Source of the DNA: a virus
DNA length: 64,000 bases
IMG/VR virus record: IMGVR_UViG_3300046665_000548
Location: 496,001 to 560,000 of that record
Strand: one strand, 5' to 3'
A model generated the notes under the pieces. The model made no database searches and was not told the origin of the DNA. It was given only the letters and a program-made list of their open reading frames with translations. How positions within the stretch are numbered: position 1 is the stretch's first letter; each line of letters begins with the position of its first letter. Position numbers and translations under genes: made by a program. This document shows positions 8,499 through 47,949 of the stretch, in pieces.

Positions 8499-10148
8499 AT
8501 GAGCATGTTGCACCACCTTGATACCATCGTAGCAAAAGAGTTCCAGCGCGTAACCGGTCATTCGGTTGCCCGGCTCTCTCGTGCGCGCTTCGAACACGGC
8601 GATTTTCAGTCCAATGCGGCGATGGAAGTCGCGGCTAAGACCGGCCGTCCGGCGTTGGATATTGCTCAAGCAGTTTGCGATGGCCTTAGCCGCTGGACGC
8701 AGATCGGCTCGGCAGAGGTTGCCGCGAATGGGTTCATTAATATCCGCGTCGCGGATCATTATCTTGAGTCATTCGCCCTGCTCAGCCACAAAATCTTTCC
8801 ACGCGAGTCCGGAAAAACGATCATCATCGACTTTGGCGGACCCAATGTGGCAAAGCCATTGCATGTCGGTCATCTACGATCTCTCGTGATCGGGGAGAGC
8901 CTACAGCGCATCTTCCGAGCCTTGGGCGCTAACGTGATCAGCGACGCTCATTTTGGTGACTGGGGTCTCCAGATGGGGATGCTGATTTCCGAAATCGAAC
9001 TCCACGATGGCTCCCTTCCTGCTCAGGCGGAAGAGCTTTTGAAGCTCTATCCTGAGGCCGCAGCGGCATGCGCGGCTGATCCTGATCGAATGAAACTTGC
9101 CCAAGAGGCAACGGCGCGTCTCCAGCATGATGAACCGAATGCGATTCGCATTTGGAAACACGTGACTGCGCTATCAAAGGCCAGCCAGGAACCAGATTTC
9201 AATCGCCTCGGGGTCAAGTTCGATCTTCTGCTGGGCGAGTCCGATGTTGAATGGGCCATCAAACCGATGCTCGCGATTATTGGTGATCGCGCCGAAGAAG
9301 ACGCCGGGGCTTTGGTTGTTCGAGTCAGCGAGCCCGACGATAAGAAAGAGGTCCCACCGTTGCTGCTCGTCAAGAGCGACGGATCGTATCTCTATGGCAC
9401 GACCGATCTCGCAACCATCGTAGAGCGGATGAAGCTCGAACCGGATCGTATTCTGTATGTGGTCGATCAACGCCAAAACCTACATTTCGAACAAGTCTTT
9501 CGTGCTGCTCGTAAATTTGGCTTCACCACGAAGCACGATGGCAGCACGACTGACCTCGTGCATATCGGTTTTGGCACGGTAAACGATAAGAGCGGGAAGG
9601 CGTACAAGACCCGCGAAGGCGGAGTAGCTTTGCTGTCGGACCTTCTAGATCAGTCGGTCGCGAAAGCCGCCGAACGCGCGCCAACTCCCGCAGCGGCCGA
9701 GAAAATCGGCGTGGGGGCGGTCAAGTATGCGGACCTGAATACGTGGCGAATTTCCGGATACAAGTTCGATCTTGACCGCATGCTCTCGTTCGAGGGTAAG
9801 ACCGGTCCGTACGTCCAGTATGCCTGCGTTCGGCTGCGCGCGATCTTCGAAAAGACGACGATCCCCACAGACTGGCGATTTCGCATCACTGCGCCGGAAG
9901 AACGCGCGCTGCTCGTCGCGTGTCTGGATTTCCAGACCAGGGTGGAAACGGCGGCAGATCGTTATGCGCCGAATGAAATCGCGGAATACGCATTCAATCT
10001 CGCGCAAGAGTTCAGCCGGTTCTATACGAATTGTCCGGTCCTCGGCTCTCCAGAGGAACGGTCTCGTTTGTGCCTCTGCGCGCTGACGTTCAAAATATTG
10101 AGCCAGTGTCTATACCTACTTGGAATTGACGTTCCAGAGAGGATGTAG
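8499..10148 (+). CDS. argS: Arginyl-tRNA synthetase
   Basis: A 549-residue class I synthetase of near-normal bacterial length that charges tRNA-Arg with arginine. It has an N-terminal additional domain (residues 1-100), the HIGH-type signature HVGHL at 122-126, the central YGTTDLA and DQRQNLHFEQVF blocks, a KMSKS-equivalent KSGKAYKTREGG, and the C-terminal anticodon-binding helical domain ending LGIDVPERM. All core motifs look intact. Two start codons (8499, 8505) are possible. Full aminoacyl-tRNA synthetases are rare in phages. The window holds no tRNA-Arg, so it presumably acts on host tRNA or one encoded elsewhere. Confidence 0.96.
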   Translation: MSMLHHLDTIVAKEFQRVTGHSVARLSRARFEHGDFQSNAAMEVAAKTGRPALDIAQAVCDGLSRWTQIGSAEVAANGFINIRVADHYLESFALLSHKIFPRESGKTIIIDFGGPNVAKPLHVGHLRSLVIGESLQRIFRALGANVISDAHFGDWGLQMGMLISEIELHDGSLPAQAEELLKLYPEAAAACAADPDRMKLAQEATARLQHDEPNAIRIWKHVTALSKASQEPDFNRLGVKFDLLLGESDVEWAIKPMLAIIGDRAEEDAGALVVRVSEPDDKKEVPPLLLVKSDGSYLYGTTDLATIVERMKLEPDRILYVVDQRQNLHFEQVFRAARKFGFTTKHDGSTTDLVHIGFGTVNDKSGKAYKTREGGVALLSDLLDQSVAKAAERAPTPAAAEKIGVGAVKYADLNTWRISGYKFDLDRMLSFEGKTGPYVQYACVRLRAIFEKTTIPTDWRFRITAPEERALLVACLDFQTRVETAADRYAPNEIAEYAFNLAQEFSRFYTNCPVLGSPEERSRLCLCALTFKILSQCLYLLGIDVPERM

Positions 10149-22753: not shown

Positions 22754-24321
22754 TGCCTGAAGCAAAATTCGATGTCGTATTTTTTGGGGGAACGCATTTC
22801 TCCGAGGGTCCTGGGCGATCAACGGGTATTCATCGTCTCGCTACCGAGTTACGACAAGTCGGATTTTCCGTAGCTAGTATCGATTATTTTACTTTTCTCG
22901 TAGATACAGTATCGCGGGAAACTAGGCATCAAGTCCTACGAAATTTCATTTCAGAGGATACACTGTTGGTCTGTATATCCACTACCCTTCTCAGCCGAGT
23001 GGACAATAACGACAACATCATCTGGTGGGGATGTTCGGCCGATAAAGTAAGACGCTTCATAGCTGAGATCAAAAGTATCGCGCCTCAGGCCAAAATTATC
23101 ACTGGTGGATCGCAAGTCATCACAACAGAAATGCCCTTCATCGCGCATTTCTATCCCGATATGGCGGACTATTGGGTGTGCGGTCAGGGCGAAGCATCGA
23201 TCATCGCGCTCGCAAACCACATCAAGTATGGCGACAATATCGTTACCCACCTGATGGAAGGTCTGACCGTTCTGCTTGAGAAGGACTATCCCTATGATGG
23301 ATTCTCTGGTTCTCGCATCGAATGGCCAGAACATGCCTTCGTAAAGCATGGCGAAACACTCCCCATGGAGGTAGCTCGCGGCTGCGTTTTCAAATGCGCA
23401 TTTTGCACATACGCACTGATCGGGAAAAAATGGGGAGATATGGCGCGAAACGCCGACGTGATGCGTGCAGATATGATCCGCAACTATGAGCGGTACGGCA
23501 CCACTCGCTACATTATGACCGACGATACGATCAATGATAGCATCGAGAAGGTCAAATTTCTACATGAAGTCTTCACCTCCTTGCCGTTCAAAATCGAATG
23601 GATGTCGTACGCTCGTCTGGATTTGTTTTGGAAATACCCAGAGATGGCCCAGCTATTGATGGACGCCGGGATGCGGGGCGCGGTGTTCGGTATCGAAACT
23701 CTACATGATGAAGCAGGAAAGAAAGTCGGCAAGGGTCTAGGGTCTGAGCGCGTCAAGAAAACGCTCGAACATGTGAAATCAGTATGGGGATCGACTGTCC
23801 ACATCTCTGGTCTCTTCATCCTGGGTTTGCCGGGAGAACCAGTCGAATCAATGCAACAGACCTTGGACTATCTGAACCGTCCAGATTGTCCGATTGATGC
23901 CCCGAACACGACGGCGCTGCAAATCAGCAGCGAGCGAGCCGTCAGCAAGATGGAAAAAGATCAGGAAAAATACGGTCTCACCCGAATAGATGAACGCAAA
24001 TGGACGCGTTTCGAAGACTGGGTAACCGATCTAACCGATGCCATTTCGATGCGACGAATGTCCAGCAAATTCTTGAACGAACGCAAAGCTGGACGAACTC
24101 TTTACCGAACCAGAACCTCTTTCTTGCTATTCACTCACTACTCGATAGCTCATCCAGACTTTGTAAACAACTTTCCGGGAGAGTCTGCTGCGGCGAAAAT
24201 CGATGCATTACAGCACGACGCATTAATAGATTATTTCGAGCGTGCATCGGCGTGGCGGCCTACAACGGATTTTCTACCCTCCGATGTCAGAAAATCTCCA
24301 GTGATCAAAGGATTGCAATGA
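22753..24321 (+). CDS. B12-binding-type radical SAM enzyme
   Basis: A 522-residue radical SAM protein. An N-terminal Rossmann-like region (residues 1-170, including GGTHFSEGPG and ITGGSQ) resembles the cobalamin-binding domain of this subfamily, though the cobalamin-ligating DxHxxG motif is not evident. RGCVFKCAFC (about residues 209-218) is the C-x3-C-x2-C iron-sulfur motif; FGIETLHD and LFILGLPGE follow as in B12-type members. Enzymes of this group do methylations or rearrangements on inactive carbons. The 2OG oxygenase gene overlaps its stop codon, suggesting one modification pathway. Confidence 0.88.
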   Translation: MPEAKFDVVFFGGTHFSEGPGRSTGIHRLATELRQVGFSVASIDYFTFLVDTVSRETRHQVLRNFISEDTLLVCISTTLLSRVDNNDNIIWWGCSADKVRRFIAEIKSIAPQAKIITGGSQVITTEMPFIAHFYPDMADYWVCGQGEASIIALANHIKYGDNIVTHLMEGLTVLLEKDYPYDGFSGSRIEWPEHAFVKHGETLPMEVARGCVFKCAFCTYALIGKKWGDMARNADVMRADMIRNYERYGTTRYIMTDDTINDSIEKVKFLHEVFTSLPFKIEWMSYARLDLFWKYPEMAQLLMDAGMRGAVFGIETLHDEAGKKVGKGLGSERVKKTLEHVKSVWGSTVHISGLFILGLPGEPVESMQQTLDYLNRPDCPIDAPNTTALQISSERAVSKMEKDQEKYGLTRIDERKWTRFEDWVTDLTDAISMRRMSSKFLNERKAGRTLYRTRTSFLLFTHYSIAHPDFVNNFPGESAAAKIDALQHDALIDYFERASAWRPTTDFLPSDVRKSPVIKGLQ

Positions 24322-25034
24322 TTGATTCGGCAAAACTCATCGGCGCGACCATAGACTTGGATTTCGACTTCCCAAGGATTTCTGAAGAAATCCTCGCCTG
24401 TCGGGACCTGTGGAAATACGCAAGGCCCAATAACGTTCAGATCGAAGATGGTATTGCGGGCCGAACTCCTTTTATGTCCGAGTCAAGGTCGAACTACGAA
24501 CGCCTAGAGTATTACGATACAAAGATGGCCGAGACAAAGAGTGGAGAATTTTCCGCAACTCGGCGCATGTATCTACGAACCTACGACGGTTTCGAGAACC
24601 CCTCTTTTCTCGTCACAAAAACAGTCCACGAAAACCTATGGAGATGGAGCGATGAGATCGCCACTCTCTGTCCTTATACAATCGAATGCATCGAAAGCCT
24701 TCCCATAGGAAAGCTAGGGGCTGTATGCTGTCTCATCATGGAGGATACATTTCTTCCAACGCATCGAGACTTCAATACCGAACAGAAAGACTATCACCAG
24801 TCGAGGAGCCTGGGCCTGAGTTTGATTCCGGAAACTGGAGGAGTTGGAACACAGATTTGGCATCCAGTCGAAAAGAAGCGTTACGAAATCAAAGGTAACT
24901 GTACAGTTTTCAACGACGCCATGTACCATGGGACAAGCCTCGTTCCGAGAAGGATCATCCTTCGTATCTTCGGGGAAATTGACTGGCAGAAGATTCTGTC
25001 AAAGGCAGTCCCAGAATCAGTTATCACTCTCTGA
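24318..25034 (+). CDS. 2-oxoglutarate/Fe(II)-dependent oxygenase, aspartyl hydroxylase-like
   Basis: A 238-residue protein of the double-stranded beta-helix fold. THRDF supplies the H-x-D iron ligands and YHGTSLVPRRIILR the distal His and the 2OG-binding Arg. SLGLSLIPETGGVGTQIWH matches its convergent paralogue at 25035-25721. The AUG overlaps the radical SAM stop (ATGA), so the two are coupled. The target could be a phage or host protein side chain. The two paralogues have directly abutting stop codons. Confidence 0.8.
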   Translation: MIDSAKLIGATIDLDFDFPRISEEILACRDLWKYARPNNVQIEDGIAGRTPFMSESRSNYERLEYYDTKMAETKSGEFSATRRMYLRTYDGFENPSFLVTKTVHENLWRWSDEIATLCPYTIECIESLPIGKLGAVCCLIMEDTFLPTHRDFNTEQKDYHQSRSLGLSLIPETGGVGTQIWHPVEKKRYEIKGNCTVFNDAMYHGTSLVPRRIILRIFGEIDWQKILSKAVPESVITL

Positions 25035-25721
25035 TCAGAGATACACGGCGGTGCCCTGATCGATATAGGGGCGCAACGCATCCAGGTCTAGCTCACCAAA
25101 AACTCGGACAATGATGCGCATGGGAGCGAAACCCACGCCGTGATACATCGCATCATCGAAGATCGTGCTATTGCCCTTTATCTCGTGAATTTTTTTCTCG
25201 GTAGGGTGCCAAATCTGTGTTCCAACGCCACCCGTCACCGGCACAAGAGCCAAACCAAGGCTCTTGGAACGATCTAAGCTATCTGGTTCTATATCTCGAT
25301 GAACTGGCAAGAACGTATTCTCGAAGATGATCGAAGCCACTGTGCCGATTCGTTTGAACGGCAGCCTTTCGACAACCTCTATCGTGTAGGGACATCGTTC
25401 TTTCGCCATTGCGGACCATTTCCACCGAGAGTGGTCTACTGATTTGGTTACGAGAAAGGACTGCGCTGAGAGACCGTCATAATCTTTGAGGTAAACTCTT
25501 CTCGCGGCTGTCGCCTCTCCCTGCGCTATCTTTTGCTCATACTGTTCCCGACTAGCAGACATGAACGGCGTTACGCCATCCAAACCTTCCTGCGCCAGAC
25601 TACCCTTGGCCCTTGGCCGCGCTGCAATCCAGAATTCACGGCAAGCAAGAATTTCGTCTCTCATCTTGTCATGATCGAATTCGATATTGAGACTTGCGCC
25701 GATAAGGCCATCAGTAAACAT
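25035..25721 (-). CDS. 2-oxoglutarate/Fe(II)-dependent oxygenase, paralogue of 24318
   Basis: A 228-residue paralogue of the upstream gene, convergent with it. It shares DEILACREFW, the VHRDI iron ligands, LVPVTGGVGTQIWHP and YHGVGFAPMRIIVR. Its stop begins at the base after the other gene's stop. The AUG lies 4 nt after a late promoter box, so leaderless expression is predicted, whereas the paralogue is coupled to the radical SAM gene. An inverted duplication followed by divergence is the simplest explanation. Confidence 0.8.
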   Translation of the reverse strand: MFTDGLIGASLNIEFDHDKMRDEILACREFWIAARPRAKGSLAQEGLDGVTPFMSASREQYEQKIAQGEATAARRVYLKDYDGLSAQSFLVTKSVDHSRWKWSAMAKERCPYTIEVVERLPFKRIGTVASIIFENTFLPVHRDIEPDSLDRSKSLGLALVPVTGGVGTQIWHPTEKKIHEIKGNSTIFDDAMYHGVGFAPMRIIVRVFGELDLDALRPYIDQGTAVYL

Positions 25722-27924: not shown

Positions 27925-28000
27925 GGGGATGTAGCTCAATGGTTAGAGCGTCCGCCTGTCGAGCGGAAGGTTGCGGGTTCGAGTCCCGTCATTCCCGCCA
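27925..28000 (+). tRNA. tRNA-Asp (GTC)
   Basis: A 76-nt cloverleaf with acceptor stem GGGGATG/CATTCCC, anticodon loop CTGTCGA (anticodon GTC), T-arm GCGGG-TTCGAGT-CCCGT, and encoded CCA. Confidence 0.93.
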
Positions 28001-28001
28001 C

Positions 28002-28076
28002 GCTTCCATCGTCTAGTGGTTAGGACGTTGCCCTCTCAAGGCAAAAACGCGGGTTCGAATCCCGCTGGAAGCACCA
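28002..28076 (+). tRNA. tRNA-Glu (CTC)
   Basis: A 75-nt cloverleaf with acceptor GCTTCCA/TGGAAGC, anticodon loop CTCTCAA (anticodon CTC) and encoded CCA. Only one nucleotide separates it from the previous tRNA. Confidence 0.92.
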
Positions 28077-28090
28077 CAAATTTTGGTTAC

Positions 28091-28168
28091 GGGACGCTCC
28101 TCTAAACGGAATAGGAGCCCTCTTTTTCACAGAGGAGAATGTCGGTTCGAGTCCGACGCGTCCTGCCA
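28091..28168 (+). tRNA. tRNA-Glu (TTC), first copy
   Basis: A 78-nt cloverleaf with acceptor GGGACGC/GCGTCCT (first pair G-U), D-stem CTC/GAG, anticodon stem CCTCT/AGAGG with loop TTTTCAC (anticodon TTC), T-arm GTCGG/CCGAC and encoded CCA. It is unlike the other TTC tRNA, so it is not a simple duplication. Confidence 0.82.
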
Positions 28169-28169
28169 C

Positions 28170-28245
28170 GCATCCATCGGCTAAAGGTAAGGCCGCTCGC
28201 CTTTCAAGCGAGAAATCTAGGGTTCGAGTCCCAGTGGATGCACCA
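28170..28245 (+). tRNA. tRNA-Glu (TTC), second copy
   Basis: A 76-nt cloverleaf with acceptor GCATCCA/TGGATGC, anticodon stem CTCGC/GCGAG with loop CTTTCAA (anticodon TTC) and encoded CCA. The T-stem TAGGG/CCCAG has one A-A mismatch. The HNH gene overlaps its 3' part in antisense. Confidence 0.85.
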
Positions 28246-31682: not shown

Positions 31683-32350
31683 ACGAGCTTATCGAGACCA
31701 AAGAACTTGTTTACTCAATCAGACATCCCGTCTCAGGACTGTTCTGGAATGGAAGCACCCACGAGCCCAAATTCTTTCCAAAACCTCACCGATGGGCCAA
31801 GCTATCTGATGTGAAGCGCCGCTATGCGGATTACCTTGTCGCGTTGGAAACCAAGGACGAGGGAACGCGATATAGGCGTCCAGGCGCTTGGGATGACTGC
31901 CCTCCGTATCTGATTCTGGTGACCGAGCAGATCACGTCTACACCGCTGTCGTCAGAATCTTTGTCGCCAATCGACGGGGATAATCTTGTCTTGGCGAAAG
32001 CGAAATCAATCTTATGCGATAACCGCGCCGACTATGACAATTACCATCATCTTGTTCGGACTAGTGGTGCTTCGGCCTACCAGTTCATGGTTCAGCCGAA
32101 ATGGGATTTTCTGCAAACTCTCATCCAAAAGCAAAAAGTCTCTCGGTCCGCGAAGAGAGCATCAACCGAACAAGACGGCGAAACGCTGGTCGATCTAGTT
32201 AAAAAGCTTGGGCATCAGCGCGCCCGAGTAGTCGGCTGGTCGATATTTGTAAAAGATCAAAAAGACTTGCTGATGCTCAAAATGCAGGGGCACGTCGATA
32301 TTGATTACGTCTATGATCTGTTTTCGATGGAAAAAGTTGGTTCCGGTTAG
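31679..32350 (+). CDS. Hypothetical protein ending the early plus-strand train
   Basis: A 223-residue protein with a GUG start overlapping the previous stop. The first half resembles small aromatic beta domains (YSIRHPVSGLFWNGSTHEPKF, cut here); the second is helical and charged. Its 3' end overlaps the convergent prfH gene by 4 nt. No family assigned. Confidence 0.7.
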   Translation: MNELIETKELVYSIRHPVSGLFWNGSTHEPKFFPKPHRWAKLSDVKRRYADYLVALETKDEGTRYRRPGAWDDCPPYLILVTEQITSTPLSSESLSPIDGDNLVLAKAKSILCDNRADYDNYHHLVRTSGASAYQFMVQPKWDFLQTLIQKQKVSRSAKRASTEQDGETLVDLVKKLGHQRARVVGWSIFVKDQKDLLMLKMQGHVDIDYVYDLFSMEKVGSG

Positions 32351-32946
32351 GACCGGAACACCTTGACTGGATTACCGCGCTCGATCTGATCGTGCGCTTT
32401 CCAGGCTTCCTCCAGAATAGTGCCGCGATCCATCTCGTTCTTGATCTCCAGAAGCTCTCCTAGACGCTGTACGGCGACCTTTTTGTTCTGGTGCTGAGAT
32501 CGCCCATCGCGCACCACGACGCGCATGCCGCTCGGCACATGCGTGGCTCTCACCGCGCTATCCGTAACGTTCTGGTGCTGCCCGCCAGGGCCACCAGCGC
32601 GAAATGCTTCGAAGCGGATGTCCTCAGGCTTGATCGTCTGCGTTGCAGGTGCGTTTGGAAGCTCGGTGATGGAAACGAACCAATTCTTCCGCTTATGTCC
32701 CGGACGTATGGTGCTTTGTGCGATCCACTGGACCGAACCAAGCCATCCTTGAGCGAAGCTACTGGAGCTTTCGCCTTCAAGCATGACCACGACGGAACCC
32801 GGCCCGTGCTTGTCCGGTGCCTTGCCCTCAACTACGGAGGTCGTCAGGTCATTCTCGCTGGCATCCTTACAGAGCCTCTTTACGATCTCTGCCACGGCAA
32901 GACGGCATTCGGCCGGGCCACGCCCGCTTGTGATGATCAGGTTCAT
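32347..32946 (-). CDS. prfH: Peptide chain release factor H-like protein
   Basis: A 199-residue member of the release-factor family that lacks the stop-codon-recognising domain. FRAGGPGGQHQNVTDSAVRA contains the catalytic GGQ, and ITSGRGPAECRLAVAEI is typical of PrfH. PrfH with RtcB2 is known in bacteria as a module rescuing and repairing ribosomes cut in the 16S decoding centre. Here prfH ends an operon that starts with rtcB. It overlaps the upstream gene by 4 nt. Confidence 0.9.
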   Translation of the reverse strand: MNLIITSGRGPAECRLAVAEIVKRLCKDASENDLTTSVVEGKAPDKHGPGSVVVMLEGESSSSFAQGWLGSVQWIAQSTIRPGHKRKNWFVSITELPNAPATQTIKPEDIRFEAFRAGGPGGQHQNVTDSAVRATHVPSGMRVVVRDGRSQHQNKKVAVQRLGELLEIKNEMDRGTILEEAWKAHDQIERGNPVKVFRS

Positions 32947-34269: not shown

Positions 34270-34429
34270 TGCGAACATCCTCAATTGTCATCACGTCGAT
34301 CCATTGAAAATTCCAACGCAGAAAAGCTTTCTCATCATCGGTCATGTTCCGAATGTTCATCCATTCCTCGGCCGCATCTTTATCTTCGACCAGCACGATG
34401 GGAGACACGCCCAGACTGAGGACACGCAT
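34256..34429 (-). CDS. Small hypothetical protein after rtcB
   Basis: A 57-residue protein starting MRVLSLGVSPIVLVEDKDAA, its AUG overlapping the rtcB stop (TAATG). Strand-helix arrangement, no recognised motif. Confidence 0.6.
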   Translation of the reverse strand: MRVLSLGVSPIVLVEDKDAAEEWMNIRNMTDDEKAFLRWNFQWIDVMTIEDVRNAPR

Positions 34430-35574
34430 TACTTGTCCTTCCAACTTTTGTTCTTCTCGGCCGCTGCTGACTGCGCCGTCTTGAACGTCACTAGCGGTCG
34501 GAAGGTAGCGACGACCTTGACCAGACCGAACGCCACTAGATCATTGATCACGCGGTCGATATTCTTGTACGCGTCGCCTGCCTCTTCCATCAACAGATTA
34601 CGATCCTCGCAAACAACAATGCCTCCGAAAGGATTTTTGGCCATCTTTTCGCGAACCGATTTGACGTTCTGCACGCGGCCATGCATGGACCCGCGATCAT
34701 ATTTGCGCCCAGCACCGTGAGCCAATGACGTAAGCGAATCAGCGGTAGCCGTATCAAGTGGCTGCACGAGATAAGACAGTGTTTCCCGAGACCCAGGAAT
34801 CGGCACAAGTCCGCGATCAGAAGGAGCCGCGCCTTTGCGATGTAGCACGCGCTCATCTTCGGTAAGTTCGAGGAAGTTATGACTGAGATCGGCAATTGGT
34901 GTGATCACGCCACGGGCCGCTTCCGCTGCTCGCTCAGCGATGATCTGGCGGTTTAGTTCTGCCCAATCCACCGCGTGTTTGTGGTCAGTCAGGTAGCGCC
35001 CACCATCTTCGGAATCTACCTGAAGGGTCGTTACGTTTTTTGCAAGGAGGCTTTCCAAAACAGAATAGCCAAGAGCCCGCGACCCGGAGTGGACCAACAC
35101 GAACACCATGTCGGCGTCGAGGTTCGCTTTTGAGGCTGCTTCTTTGTCAAAAATCTCATGGATGGCTTGCAGTTCGCAAAAATGGTTTCCGCCGCCGATG
35201 GTCCCAAGGCCCCCATCGTACGGAGATGGACGAAACCCCCATTGTTCAGTTCGGTGACGGTGATCGCCACTCCAAGGTTCGTCCAGGTCCTTTAGACGTT
35301 CCGCAACCTTATCTGCTCGAAGCTTTCGGTGCTTCAGGTCGGTCATGAAGAGACCCATCCCGCAGCCAATATCGGAACCGACGATGCGTGGATGAATTTG
35401 CGTGCTCAGCATCCCACAACCCACCGGGCCATATTTTCCCGGATGCAAATCAGGCATGGCGGCCACCGCCTGAACCGTCTCGGTATCGGCAAGCTGCTCA
35501 AGCTGGCGCTCGGCGGCCCCTTCGATCCAGGCGCGGTCAGAGAAAAATCGGTTAATTGGTGCTCGTTGATTCAT
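34429..35574 (-). CDS. rtcB: RtcB-family RNA ligase
   Basis: A 381-residue RNA ligase that joins 2',3'-cyclic phosphate or 3'-phosphate ends to 5'-OH ends using GTP. GSDIGCGMGLF, GTIGGGNHFCEL, HSGSRALG, HRKGAAP and LAHGAGRKYDR carry the metal-binding Cys/His residues and the guanylated His. Its size is near the compact RtcB2 group. It is first in a seven-gene overlapping operon ending with prfH. A TTGACG/TATACT promoter places the start 8 nt before the AUG. Confidence 0.94.
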   Translation of the reverse strand: MNQRAPINRFFSDRAWIEGAAERQLEQLADTETVQAVAAMPDLHPGKYGPVGCGMLSTQIHPRIVGSDIGCGMGLFMTDLKHRKLRADKVAERLKDLDEPWSGDHRHRTEQWGFRPSPYDGGLGTIGGGNHFCELQAIHEIFDKEAASKANLDADMVFVLVHSGSRALGYSVLESLLAKNVTTLQVDSEDGGRYLTDHKHAVDWAELNRQIIAERAAEAARGVITPIADLSHNFLELTEDERVLHRKGAAPSDRGLVPIPGSRETLSYLVQPLDTATADSLTSLAHGAGRKYDRGSMHGRVQNVKSVREKMAKNPFGGIVVCEDRNLLMEEAGDAYKNIDRVINDLVAFGLVKVVATFRPLVTFKTAQSAAAEKNKSWKDK

Positions 35575-43324: not shown

Positions 43325-43476
43325 TACTCTTCCTTATGTACAGACCAGCCGTCAGGTCCTCGCCCATCCTGCACGAGCGTACGCTTACGGCCGGTAAAAA
43401 CACTATAAGTGTCGCGGGTGCATTCAAGCCATGATCCACCCATGCTTATCTGGTACTTTGTGGCGAAAAAATTCAC
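43324..43476 (-). CDS. Small hypothetical protein, GUG start
   Basis: A 50-residue protein (VNFFATKYQISMGGSWLECT at the start) coupled to the upstream gene through GTGA and to the HAD gene through TAATG. The exact fit between both neighbours supports a real gene. Unknown function. Confidence 0.6.
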   Translation of the reverse strand: MNFFATKYQISMGGSWLECTRDTYSVFTGRKRTLVQDGRGPDGWSVHKEE

Positions 43477-44021
43477 GACTTGTCCCCGTTGATCTCGGCA
43501 ACCATCCGCGTGACCGTAAGCAGCGCCTGACGCTCGGCCTCTGCCTTCATACGCCGCCGAACCTCGGACTGATAGTGTTCCAAGTATTCTTTTTCGATGG
43601 CTTTCTTTACCGTATTGGGCAAATCAGGCAAGTCACCGATTTGATGCGTAAACCATTCGTCAATAGTCTCGCGCGCCGCATCCGTGATGAAATTCATGGT
43701 TTCGCTGGCTTTACTGATTTGCCATTTGCCCCAGGAATCTCTCGATATCCCCATTGCGGCCATTACGAGATCGAACGCCGATTCTTCGACCTTCTTTTGA
43801 ATATAGGTCCTGATATTAGCCGGAGCCCAAATCCGCAGGATTGTGCCAAGCTCGGCTTCCACGTTCTTTTTGAACTGGTCGAGCGACAGGTCAAGGTCCT
43901 GTTTGCTCATCGGGGCTTTTCGAAGGTCTTCGACTTCTTGCTGCACAATGTCGCGGATGAACGCAGCAAGCACCGCCGAGTCGCCAAAAAGGTCAAAACC
44001 TGGATGTTTTCTTTCACGCAT
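43473..44021 (-). CDS. Hypothetical helical protein
   Basis: A 182-residue alpha-helical protein starting MRERKHPGFDLFGDSA, first gene of a minus-strand unit. A strong early-type promoter sets the expected +1 at the AUG, 6 nt after TAGTTT. Not recognised. Confidence 0.7.
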   Translation of the reverse strand: MRERKHPGFDLFGDSAVLAAFIRDIVQQEVEDLRKAPMSKQDLDLSLDQFKKNVEAELGTILRIWAPANIRTYIQKKVEESAFDLVMAAMGISRDSWGKWQISKASETMNFITDAARETIDEWFTHQIGDLPDLPNTVKKAIEKEYLEHYQSEVRRRMKAEAERQALLTVTRMVAEINGDKS

Positions 44022-44027
44022 CTGCGA

Positions 44028-44055
44028 AAACTACCACGCTGTCGTGTTCTGTCAA
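44028..44055 (-). promoter_or_regulatory. Early-type promoter, predicted leaderless
   Basis: On the minus strand TTGACA (44050-44055), 16 nt ending TGG, TAGTTT (44028-44033), 6 nt before the AUG at 44021. Confidence 0.75.
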
Positions 44056-44093
44056 GCTGATTTCAATAATTATAAGTAATTCCACTGAACTAT

Positions 44094-44123
44094 TTGACGT
44101 ATCGCTTCCGACGATTCGATACT
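44094..44123 (+). promoter_or_regulatory. Candidate promoter of the large structured RNA
   Basis: TTGACG (44094-44099), an 18-nt spacer and GATACT (44118-44123). The spacing is longer than in other promoters here, so confidence is moderate. Transcription would start near 44130. Confidence 0.5.
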
Positions 44124-44129
44124 CCGACT

Positions 44130-44860
44130 ACGAAACGACATACGCCTAGGAAGTTATAGGGGTTTCTTCCACCCCAAGCACCATATCCGGGACATTTACC
44201 AGGGCTCGCTGAGACAATCGAGCCGCAGACCGGACTGATGAGGTAGGGCGACCAACGAGACGGAATTCGGACATACCGTTAGGTGTCCGTCTAAACGGCT
44301 GCTCGCGCAATTAATTTTTGCGAAAAGGCACTCAGATAAGAGGAGAGTTGTGTCTTCGTCAGTTTGACACCTCTCCGCATGCGCCCGATCCCCCTGATCG
44401 GTCTGGGCGCATGAGCTTGGATTTTAATCCATAACCGTTAAACCCTCAAGACATACCGGAAGCACAAGACGCGTACTCGTTCAAAGCCGCAAGGCTACGC
44501 GACGCATTATCCCAAAGCTTCGATTGTAGGTGATGCCAGGGTTGAGATAGGGCCGCTCAAGTGAATATTCGGGTAACCGTTCACTGTCCGTAGAACGACA
44601 ACGTGGCTGATCAGGGGTCAAAAGACTCAGGTTGATGACTGCTTTTCTCTCCCTTCATTATCTCTTCGGAGATTTTGCAGGGGGAGGAAAGGTCTGATCT
44701 AGGTTGATGAATTGAACAAATATCTGAATGAATACTCTTCAAGTATTCGCTGGAAGGAATGTCGTAGCGAAGCGAAGCATTCCGAACCGCGTAGGATTAG
44801 CGATGCGTAGCGAGCTAAGCCTTTACATCACTGATAAAAGATTAGTGACTTTTCACAGAG
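44130..44860 (+). ncRNA. Large structured RNA candidate, about 730 nt
   Basis: No gene fits this 840-nt gap, yet it is dense with pairing. An H-type pseudoknot opens it (GGAAG 44149-44153/CTTCC 44166-44170 interleaved with GGGG 44159-44162/CCCC 44172-44175). Stems follow at 44203-44208/44219-44224, 44342-44347/44371-44376, 44378-44386/44405-44413 (9 bp), AGCC-GCAA-GGCT at 44485-44496 (GNRA), 44561-44584 with a GUAA loop, 44660-44673 with a UUCG loop, 44730-44748 and 44756-44783. A hairpin at 44828-44846 followed by ACTTTT may terminate it. Size and style recall GOLLD/ROOL-type phage RNAs; identity is not established. Confidence 0.6.
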
Positions 44861-44900
44861 CAATGTGCCCATATGTCGTATTGCTTTGAAAGAATAGATT

Positions 44901-45344
44901 ATGGAAATCCTTATAGGAGATTTGGAGACCAACGGACTTAAGCCGGATCGCATCTGGATGGTCGGCGTGTTGGACTATCACACTGATGAATACGTGTCGT
45001 ACATCGGTGATGACGAAGTGCCGCTTGGCCTTATGCGTTTGGCTGAAGCTGATCGTGTCATCGGGCATAATTTTCGTGGCTATGACGCACGGGTGATTAA
45101 GAAGCTCACGAACGGACTCATCGAGATCGACAATGATCGGATTGACGACACGGTAGAGATTAGCCGTGCTCTGTTTCCAGAATTGGAAAATCATAAACTG
45201 GCAACCTGGGGAGAAATTCTCGGATTTCCAAAGCTCGATTCGCCTCTGTTCGAGACATTCACTCCAAAGATGATCCCTTACTGCGAACGCGATTGCCGCC
45301 TCAATAAGGTGCTCTACGATTTTCTGCTGAGCCGGATGACCTAA
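44901..45344 (+). CDS. DnaQ-like 3'-5' exonuclease
   Basis: A 147-residue stand-alone exonuclease domain. GDLETNGL (residues 6-13) is ExoI (D-x-E), IGHNFRGYDARVI fits ExoII, and YCERDCRL near residue 132 is ExoIII of the DEDDy type. It resembles the proofreading domain of T7-type polymerases without the polymerase. It could trim host or phage nucleic acids. It is next to the structured RNA region but the link is unknown. The stop overlaps the next start. Confidence 0.85.
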   Translation: MEILIGDLETNGLKPDRIWMVGVLDYHTDEYVSYIGDDEVPLGLMRLAEADRVIGHNFRGYDARVIKKLTNGLIEIDNDRIDDTVEISRALFPELENHKLATWGEILGFPKLDSPLFETFTPKMIPYCERDCRLNKVLYDFLLSRMT

Positions 45345-46793: not shown

Positions 46794-47378
46794 ATGGCGG
46801 AGACGAGTGAGTTCTTCCTTGAGCTTCCGGAACTTACGTTCGATCCACGCGAACTATTAAAGATTGCGGAGGAGATGCATGATCATTGGAAGCCATACGT
46901 CGATCCTGGCTACAATTCAATAGGGGCGAGCTTACACCTGCGCCATCCTACAAATGTTGAGCGCGCGTACGTTCAGCACCTGAGAAAAAAACTGACGTTT
47001 GTGATTAACCGACATCGGGTGATGTTTTTCCGCATCCTTCCAGGTGTTTTGGTTCCTCCGCATCTTGACCTCCACCCGCCCGGTATGGCCGTTGCTAGAC
47101 AGGCGGCTATCGTATTTCCATTGATCCCGAAGGGACCGAAGACAGGTGCACCAATTCGATGGCATCGAGATGGAAAGGTTGTCATGGAGCATCACTATTC
47201 CACCGAATACGCGACGATGATCAATACTCAGCAGACGCATTCCGTTCAGAACAATGAGCATGAAAGGATCGCTTTTCAGTTCAGCGTTTATGAGCAGTTT
47301 GCAGATTGCGTCACGCGCTATCGAGAAGGCACCTTCTTTACTAACTCGTTGCATCAACCCTACGTCCCAAATGTCTAG
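46794..47378 (+). CDS. 2OG/Fe(II) oxygenase, aspartyl/asparaginyl hydroxylase-like, first tandem copy
   Basis: A 194-residue protein. VPPHLDLHPPG supplies the H-x-D iron ligands, THSVQNNEHERIAFQF the distal His and Arg. FFLELPELTFDP, VARQAAIVFPL and MEHHYSTEYATMIN are shared with the following tandem copy at 47371. Hydroxylation of a protein side chain is likely; the target is unknown. The family differs in sequence from the pair at 24.3-25.7 kb. Confidence 0.8.
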   Translation: MAETSEFFLELPELTFDPRELLKIAEEMHDHWKPYVDPGYNSIGASLHLRHPTNVERAYVQHLRKKLTFVINRHRVMFFRILPGVLVPPHLDLHPPGMAVARQAAIVFPLIPKGPKTGAPIRWHRDGKVVMEHHYSTEYATMINTQQTHSVQNNEHERIAFQFSVYEQFADCVTRYREGTFFTNSLHQPYVPNV

Positions 47379-47949
47379 GAATGTCTCCGATCAATTCTAT
47401 CTTGAGCTACCCGAGCTTACGTTTGATCGAAACGAGTTTATTTCCACGGTAGAAGAACTTCGAAAATACTGGAAGCCTTGTATGACCCCAGTTGGGGTCG
47501 GCGTGGGATGTCGGGTTCAGCGTCACGTTTCTATCTTTGACCGACCTCACGTCAAGAGCATCACGGATAAGCTTGCCTTCGAATTGAATGCATACAATGT
47601 CGGTTTCCTCAAGCTTGATCCCGGTTTTTATCTACCCGAGCACGTAGACGCCCAACCGCCCGGATCACCGGTAGCTCGTCAGGCCGTCATTATGTTTCCG
47701 ATTACTCCACTCGAAGCAATTGACACTGCTCCTATCCGTTGGTTTCGAGAAGGAGAGTTGGTCATGGAACACCATTATTCCACCAAACACGCCACCATCA
47801 TCAATGCACAAGAGAACCATTCGGTTCAGAACAACGCAAATGAGAGAATTAGCTTCCAGATCAGTCTTTATGAGCCATTTGCGGATTGTGTGAAGAAATA
47901 TCGAGAAGGAACGTTCTACAATAACCAGAGCATTGTTTCGCCCGTATAA
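47371..47949 (+). CDS. 2OG/Fe(II) oxygenase, aspartyl/asparaginyl hydroxylase-like, second tandem copy
   Basis: A 192-residue tandem paralogue overlapping the first by 8 nt. It keeps LPEHVDAQPPG (H-x-D, here H-V-D), FYLELPELTFDR, VARQAVIMFPI and NHSVQNNANERISFQI. Both copies keep all iron ligands, so they likely act on different targets or sites rather than one being inactive. Its stop codon overlaps a perfect late promoter. Confidence 0.8.
   Translation: MSRNVSDQFYLELPELTFDRNEFISTVEELRKYWKPCMTPVGVGVGCRVQRHVSIFDRPHVKSITDKLAFELNAYNVGFLKLDPGFYLPEHVDAQPPGSPVARQAVIMFPITPLEAIDTAPIRWFREGELVMEHHYSTKHATIINAQENHSVQNNANERISFQISLYEPFADCVKKYREGTFYNNQSIVSPV

Follow-up and report, generated by a model that had tools for sequence, protein, structure and literature searches.

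Related very large phages encode a family of conserved, structured RNAs, about 650-750 nt long, in two to four dispersed copies per genome. One copy lies in the window analysed here, a 64,000-nt stretch that covers positions 496001-560000 of a 607,744-base record of a bacterial virus (608 kb; IMG/VR record IMGVR_UViG_3300046665_000548). The existence of the family is, in our judgement, practically certain. In our reading this is a new family, a large stand-alone non-coding RNA of phages, GOLLD- and ROOL-like in kind and a member of neither.

The original prediction placed a large structured RNA in the longest gene-free segment of the window, between two divergent genes. Both observations hold: 44080-44852 (773 nt) is the longest stretch uncovered by ORFs of at least 60 aa when both strands are counted, and it is flanked by the ORFs 43473-44021 (- strand) and 44901-45344 (+ strand), the latter coding for an RNase H-fold exonuclease (Pfam PF13482). 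The RNA itself probably extends from near 44130 to near 44821 on the + strand (44130-44821), judging from the promoter at the 5' side and from the last shared hairpin at the 3' side. A candidate promoter was indeed found at 44094/44118 (TTGACG, 18 nt, GATACT; 44094-44123, + strand). Taken alone it is weak, with three promoter-like sites of this kind found against 1.3 expected, but it recurs in place, and a TTGAC...GATTCTAT or GATACT element precedes most members. The terminator predicted near 44846 did not survive, since a scan for intrinsic terminators found none and the A+T-rich hairpin at that position is, by eye, not common to the relatives.

Folding 44090-44860 gives -255.4 kcal/mol (z = -3.8), lower than all of 20 dinucleotide shuffles. 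Two relatives gave z = -8.8 and -5.5. The reverse strand of the window RNA also folds well (z = -4.6), so energy alone cannot choose the RNA strand.

The window's phage carries three copies of the approximately 700-base RNA, and relatives were found in ten other viral sequences, four of which are giant phages of 415-578 kb. Altogether there are 22 distinct copies across 11 virus records, with two to four copies in each of the five largest. The second copy in the window's record, at 213 kb, is 69% identical over 428 nt by BLAST, and a related 457-kb phage gave a faint BLAST match that proved, on reading, to be a full homologue. Three sequences served to build R1, the first covariance model for the core, which matched the 457-kb phage at four places and a 266-kb record at one; a pattern derived from the core gave three further contigs fitting the model. 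A model from ten sequences (R2) was run over 38 phage records and detected three copies in the window's phage, four in a 578-kb phage and two each in a 561-kb and a 415-kb phage. The copy at 351802, the third in the window's phage, had the lowest R2 score, 38 bits, and was accepted on the strength of the GNRA-type hairpin that follows it. This hairpin lies outside the core model, and its pattern was scanned over IMG/VR as an independent check. The scan gave 38 further records, five of which (G048, G050, G060, G064 and G065) have a core at the expected spacing, about 250-330 nt upstream, with E below 1e-14; the G065 copy is identical to one of the G060 copies. With R3, a model built from the accepted copies themselves, these copies score 68-128 bits. 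The best background match among 94 gammaproteobacterial genomes reached 29.7 bits (L205); it is located within a gene and owes its score to CATAACCGTTTG.

Several other candidates were rejected. Exact-pattern matches of AAGCTTCGATTGTAGGTG in L004 and L005 fall inside a tape-measure-like gene and are attributed to chance, as are the coding BLAST matches at 244991 and 165545 of G001 and a G067 match (E 0.001) that does not adjoin the GNRA motif. Matches in phage Atu_ph07 with R1 and R2 (E 0.4 and 0.02) were gone with R3, and tight-pattern matches in bacterial genome contigs do not fit the covariance model. Pattern scans with GGGCGCATGAGC and GCAGACCGGACT had no match, and blastn against the INPHARED phages found no homologue. 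No RNA copy was found in at least 20 other relatives, including Atu_ph07 and Phosso. In a topoisomerase tree the six RNA-bearing phages tested fall near one another, with weak inner support.

Strong evidence for a conserved fold comes from covariation, which had been proposed as a check; like the energy comparison with shuffles, it favours the prediction. The core (44296-44443, + strand; the part described by R1-R3) contains P3 (44298-44300/44327-44329), P4 (44306-44310/44318-44322), P5a (44342-44347/44371-44376), P5b (44350-44354/44366-44370), P6 (44378-44386/44405-44413), which is the perfect 9-bp stem noticed at the outset, P7 (44419-44422/44427-44430) and a conserved AACCGTT (44433-44439). 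With ten members, 21 of the 27 pairs in the RNAalifold structure showed a double change, and the program proposed a helix that had not been supplied to it, GCY/RGC closing P4. Across the 22 copies both sides change in 26 of 29 core pairs, 159 compensatory cells were counted against 40.0 +/- 6.6 in shuffles, and 95.8% of base pairs are kept against 26-48% paired when partners are slid; the alignments behind such counts (A6, A7 and A9) follow the model structure, and their pair counts are somewhat inflated. The core holds 35 G-U cells against nine C-A cells, and C-A would be G-U on the other strand, which indicates that the + strand is the RNA.

Outside the core, the GNRA-type hairpin (44560-44565/44580-44585, with GG[GTAA]CC at 44571-44578) and the small hairpin that follows it (44586-44588/44597-44599) were counted in a plain MAFFT alignment of 17 members. 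They contain 38 compensatory cells against 10.9, and 86% of the pairs are kept against 27-53%. The GNRA tetraloop of the first reading (GTAA, 44573-44576) is common to the relatives, whereas the UUCG tetraloop of that reading is present in the window (TTCG, 44665-44668) and absent from most relatives. The H-type pseudoknot at the 5' end was located at 44149-44175 (GGAAG 44149-44153/CTTCC 44166-44170; GGGGT 44159-44163/ACCCC 44171-44175). Single-sequence pseudoknots of this type occur in about half of shuffled regions and are not significant alone, so only fixed position and covariation count as evidence. The hand-picked arms pair in 16 of 17 members, with compensatory changes both in S1 (positions 2-5) and in S2 (positions 2, 4 and 5). 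In P2 (TCCGG 44186-44190/CCGGA 44230-44234, enclosing GGCTCG 44203-44208/CGAGCC 44219-44224) both strands are altered together between the first two copies; the region 44186-44234 is less regular in other members.

Towards the 3' end, the hairpins 44730-44736/44742-44748 and 44756-44761/44778-44783 have counterparts in relatives by eye only, and the last hairpin (44794-44801/44814-44821) has them, also by eye, in most members. Direct repeats (CTCAGGTTGATGA at 44626-44638 and ATCTAGGTTGATGA at 44697-44710) flank the hairpin 44642-44653/44680-44691. In the window copy and its relatives these repeats, CTCAGGx and ATCTAGGx, stand on either side of the last large hairpin, and their variable part x is nearly identical within one copy and different between copies. 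In some members the strand preceding the first repeat is able to pair with either x; a third segment pairing with the variable part of both repeats was sought, and no consistent partner was found. Such pairing may serve as a switch or as a contact between molecules.

The RNA thus combines a covarying secondary structure with a lack of coding capacity, the window copy having no ORF of at least 60 aa in its interior, and it lies outside Rfam. Cmscan with Rfam 15 returned no family matching the RNA in the window at gathering thresholds, none in 44000-44950 at E up to 10, and none in 12 member loci or, at E up to 1, in three loci. The initial statement that no known family could be matched therefore stands, and with no Rfam hit to support them, an intron, a tmRNA and an RNase P were discarded as readings. 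The suggested likeness to GOLLD and ROOL is confined to size, style and phage context; no scanned member fits their covariance models, and the OLE model likewise had no match in the window or member-locus scans. We found no published description of the family in the open-access literature (preprints being outside the scope), and the only non-coding RNAs mentioned in a 2026 jumbo-phage review are those of PhiKZ.

The window also carries four tandem tRNA genes (one Asp and three Glu) at 27925-28245; the Glu tRNA at 28091-28168 is found by ARAGORN and is not listed by Rfam at the gathering score. An arginyl-tRNA-synthetase-like gene is located at 8499-10148 (+ strand). Peptide chain release factor H (32347-32946, - strand; TIGR03072, E 2e-64) is accompanied by its partner, the RNA ligase RtcB (34429-35574, - strand; TIGR03073, NF007153), with an R2K ATP-grasp gene between them. 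The PrfH-RtcB pair is an RNA/ribosome repair module known from bacteria, here in a giant phage. Two similar neighbouring gene pairs (46794-47378 with 47254-47949, and 24000-25034 with 25035-25721) had no Pfam match where tested, have a WHREGK/HHYST-like or GGVGTQIWHP motif in common and could have arisen by duplication and divergence.

The RNA copies occupy three or more conserved loci with different neighbours. Locus I, with the order Smr-domain gene, HAD-like gene, RNA and exonuclease, is the site of the window copy and is occupied by a copy in five other phages too; the exonuclease family was assigned by clustering in four phages and by sequence reading in a fifth. Locus II, with Clp-like and DnaJ-like genes, holds copies in four phages, and locus III adjoins an isoleucyl-tRNA-synthetase-like gene in two. 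The 213-kb copy adjoins a glutamyl-tRNA-synthetase-like gene (glutamyl- and isoleucyl-type genes beside RNA copies: L003 4067-4954, - strand, and L133). Beside the RNA copy 126276 of G002 there are five tandem paralogous genes of about 165 aa each (L142, family F1).

This layout bears on the possibility that the RNA acts in cis as a very long leader, forming the 5' end of the message that follows and exerting riboswitch- or attenuator-like control over it. At the window locus the RNA and the exonuclease gene 44901-45344 behind it share one orientation, an arrangement also seen in other phages. However, the downstream genes vary among loci, and at two locus II copies (G005_389 and G006_84) the next ORF is convergent with the RNA, so it is not a leader there. 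The RNA is also much larger than known leaders and has no Rfam leader match. Several loci with differing neighbours, some with convergent next genes, argue for a stand-alone RNA, and we consider a leader unlikely.

T4 has several dispersed replication origins per genome. By comparison, the RNA could belong to an origin element, its transcript priming replication through an R-loop at each of several scattered sites in a genome. The wide separation of the single copies, a putative promoter of their own and the divergent gene switch at the window locus would suit such a role. The loci are not all divergent, however, and the fold is RNA-like (G-U over C-A, pseudoknot, GNRA hairpin), which an R-loop primer does not need; we find this explanation quite unlikely. 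A mobile or selfish RNA element, for example an intron remnant spread to several loci, would account for several copies per genome. Yet the copies are intergenic at conserved loci in different phages, there is no ORF inside, and the group I and II intron and HEARO models of Rfam had no match, which makes this origin very improbable. The leader, origin and mobile-element readings each account for less of the evidence. The idea that ordinary intergenic DNA folds this way by chance can be dismissed: although shuffled regions often yield such pseudoknots and promoter-like sites are common, it is refuted by the covariation in 22 copies, and also by the kept inter-motif spacing and the synteny.

The reading that we prefer is a scaffold that acts in trans. 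Each copy would be transcribed from its own sigma-70-like promoter and end at the 3' hairpin, and the product would act as a folded RNA, not as a message or leader. We infer the own promoter, the discrete transcript and the trans action of the RNA copies; the oligomeric scaffold is proposed by analogy only. Phage RNAs of such size and style, GOLLD and ROOL, form cages (PMC12286853). Made during infection, the new RNA might similarly build an RNA-only homo-oligomer of the GOLLD, ROOL or OLE type, or, joined by a protein of the phage or the host, it might form the core of an RNP. As a whole, the statement of an RNA family with an own-promoter, trans-acting scaffold of either form seems to us evenly balanced between right and wrong.

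Several diverged copies could supply dose or a mixed assembly. In the copy tree, some copies group by genome (G000, support 94; G002, support 96) and others by locus rather than genome (supports 100 and 99). This mixture suggests some homogenisation of the copies within a genome. The further proposal that the two to four diverged, partly homogenised copies at fixed loci co-assemble into a mixed RNA particle or RNP serving a step peculiar to very large phages is tentative and, in our estimate, rather doubtful. Two points count against the scaffold reading: some copies group by locus and not by genome, and tRNA proximity, a usual feature of GOLLD and ROOL, is partial, with tRNAs within a few kb of copies G028_204, G006_383 and G002_199 and 16 kb off in the window.

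The functions of GOLLD and ROOL are still open, and large ornate RNAs are few. An unrelated family with solid covariation means that such RNAs arose in phages more than once, and it offers an independent case for asking if phages in general rely on cages or oligomers. Direct tests of the multi-copy, syntenic layout are possible, and the 22 copies with the structural model suffice for probing and structure work.

GOLLD is phage-encoded, often exceeds 800 nt (many members) and has an elaborate fold of unknown function (PMC12286853). GOLLD occurs in phages or prophages, often near tRNA genes. The new RNA resembles it in phage location, elaborate fold, size and style. In GOLLD, however, the 3' part is conserved and the 5' part is variable, whereas in the new RNA conservation lies in the central core, in the GNRA hairpin and in the pseudoknot at the 5' end; the new RNA also has two to four dispersed copies per genome. 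ROOL (659 nt in env-120, with multiple pseudoknots, in phages and prophages; PMC12286853) is similar in size, pseudoknot and phage context. A homo-octameric RNA nanocage is characteristic of ROOL. In contrast to ROOL, the new RNA is not consistently near tRNA genes, has several copies per genome and was seen in this analysis solely in a group of very large phages. OLE (about 600 nt, with many helices and stabilising RNA-RNA contacts between copies; PMC12286853) is alike in size and number of helices. It is encoded by bacteria, mostly Bacillota, and not by phages. The phi29 packaging RNA is a phage RNA that works as an oligomer. It is far shorter and single-copy, and the new RNA has no Rfam match to it. 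The new family belongs to a known kind of RNA, and its multi-copy layout is unusual.
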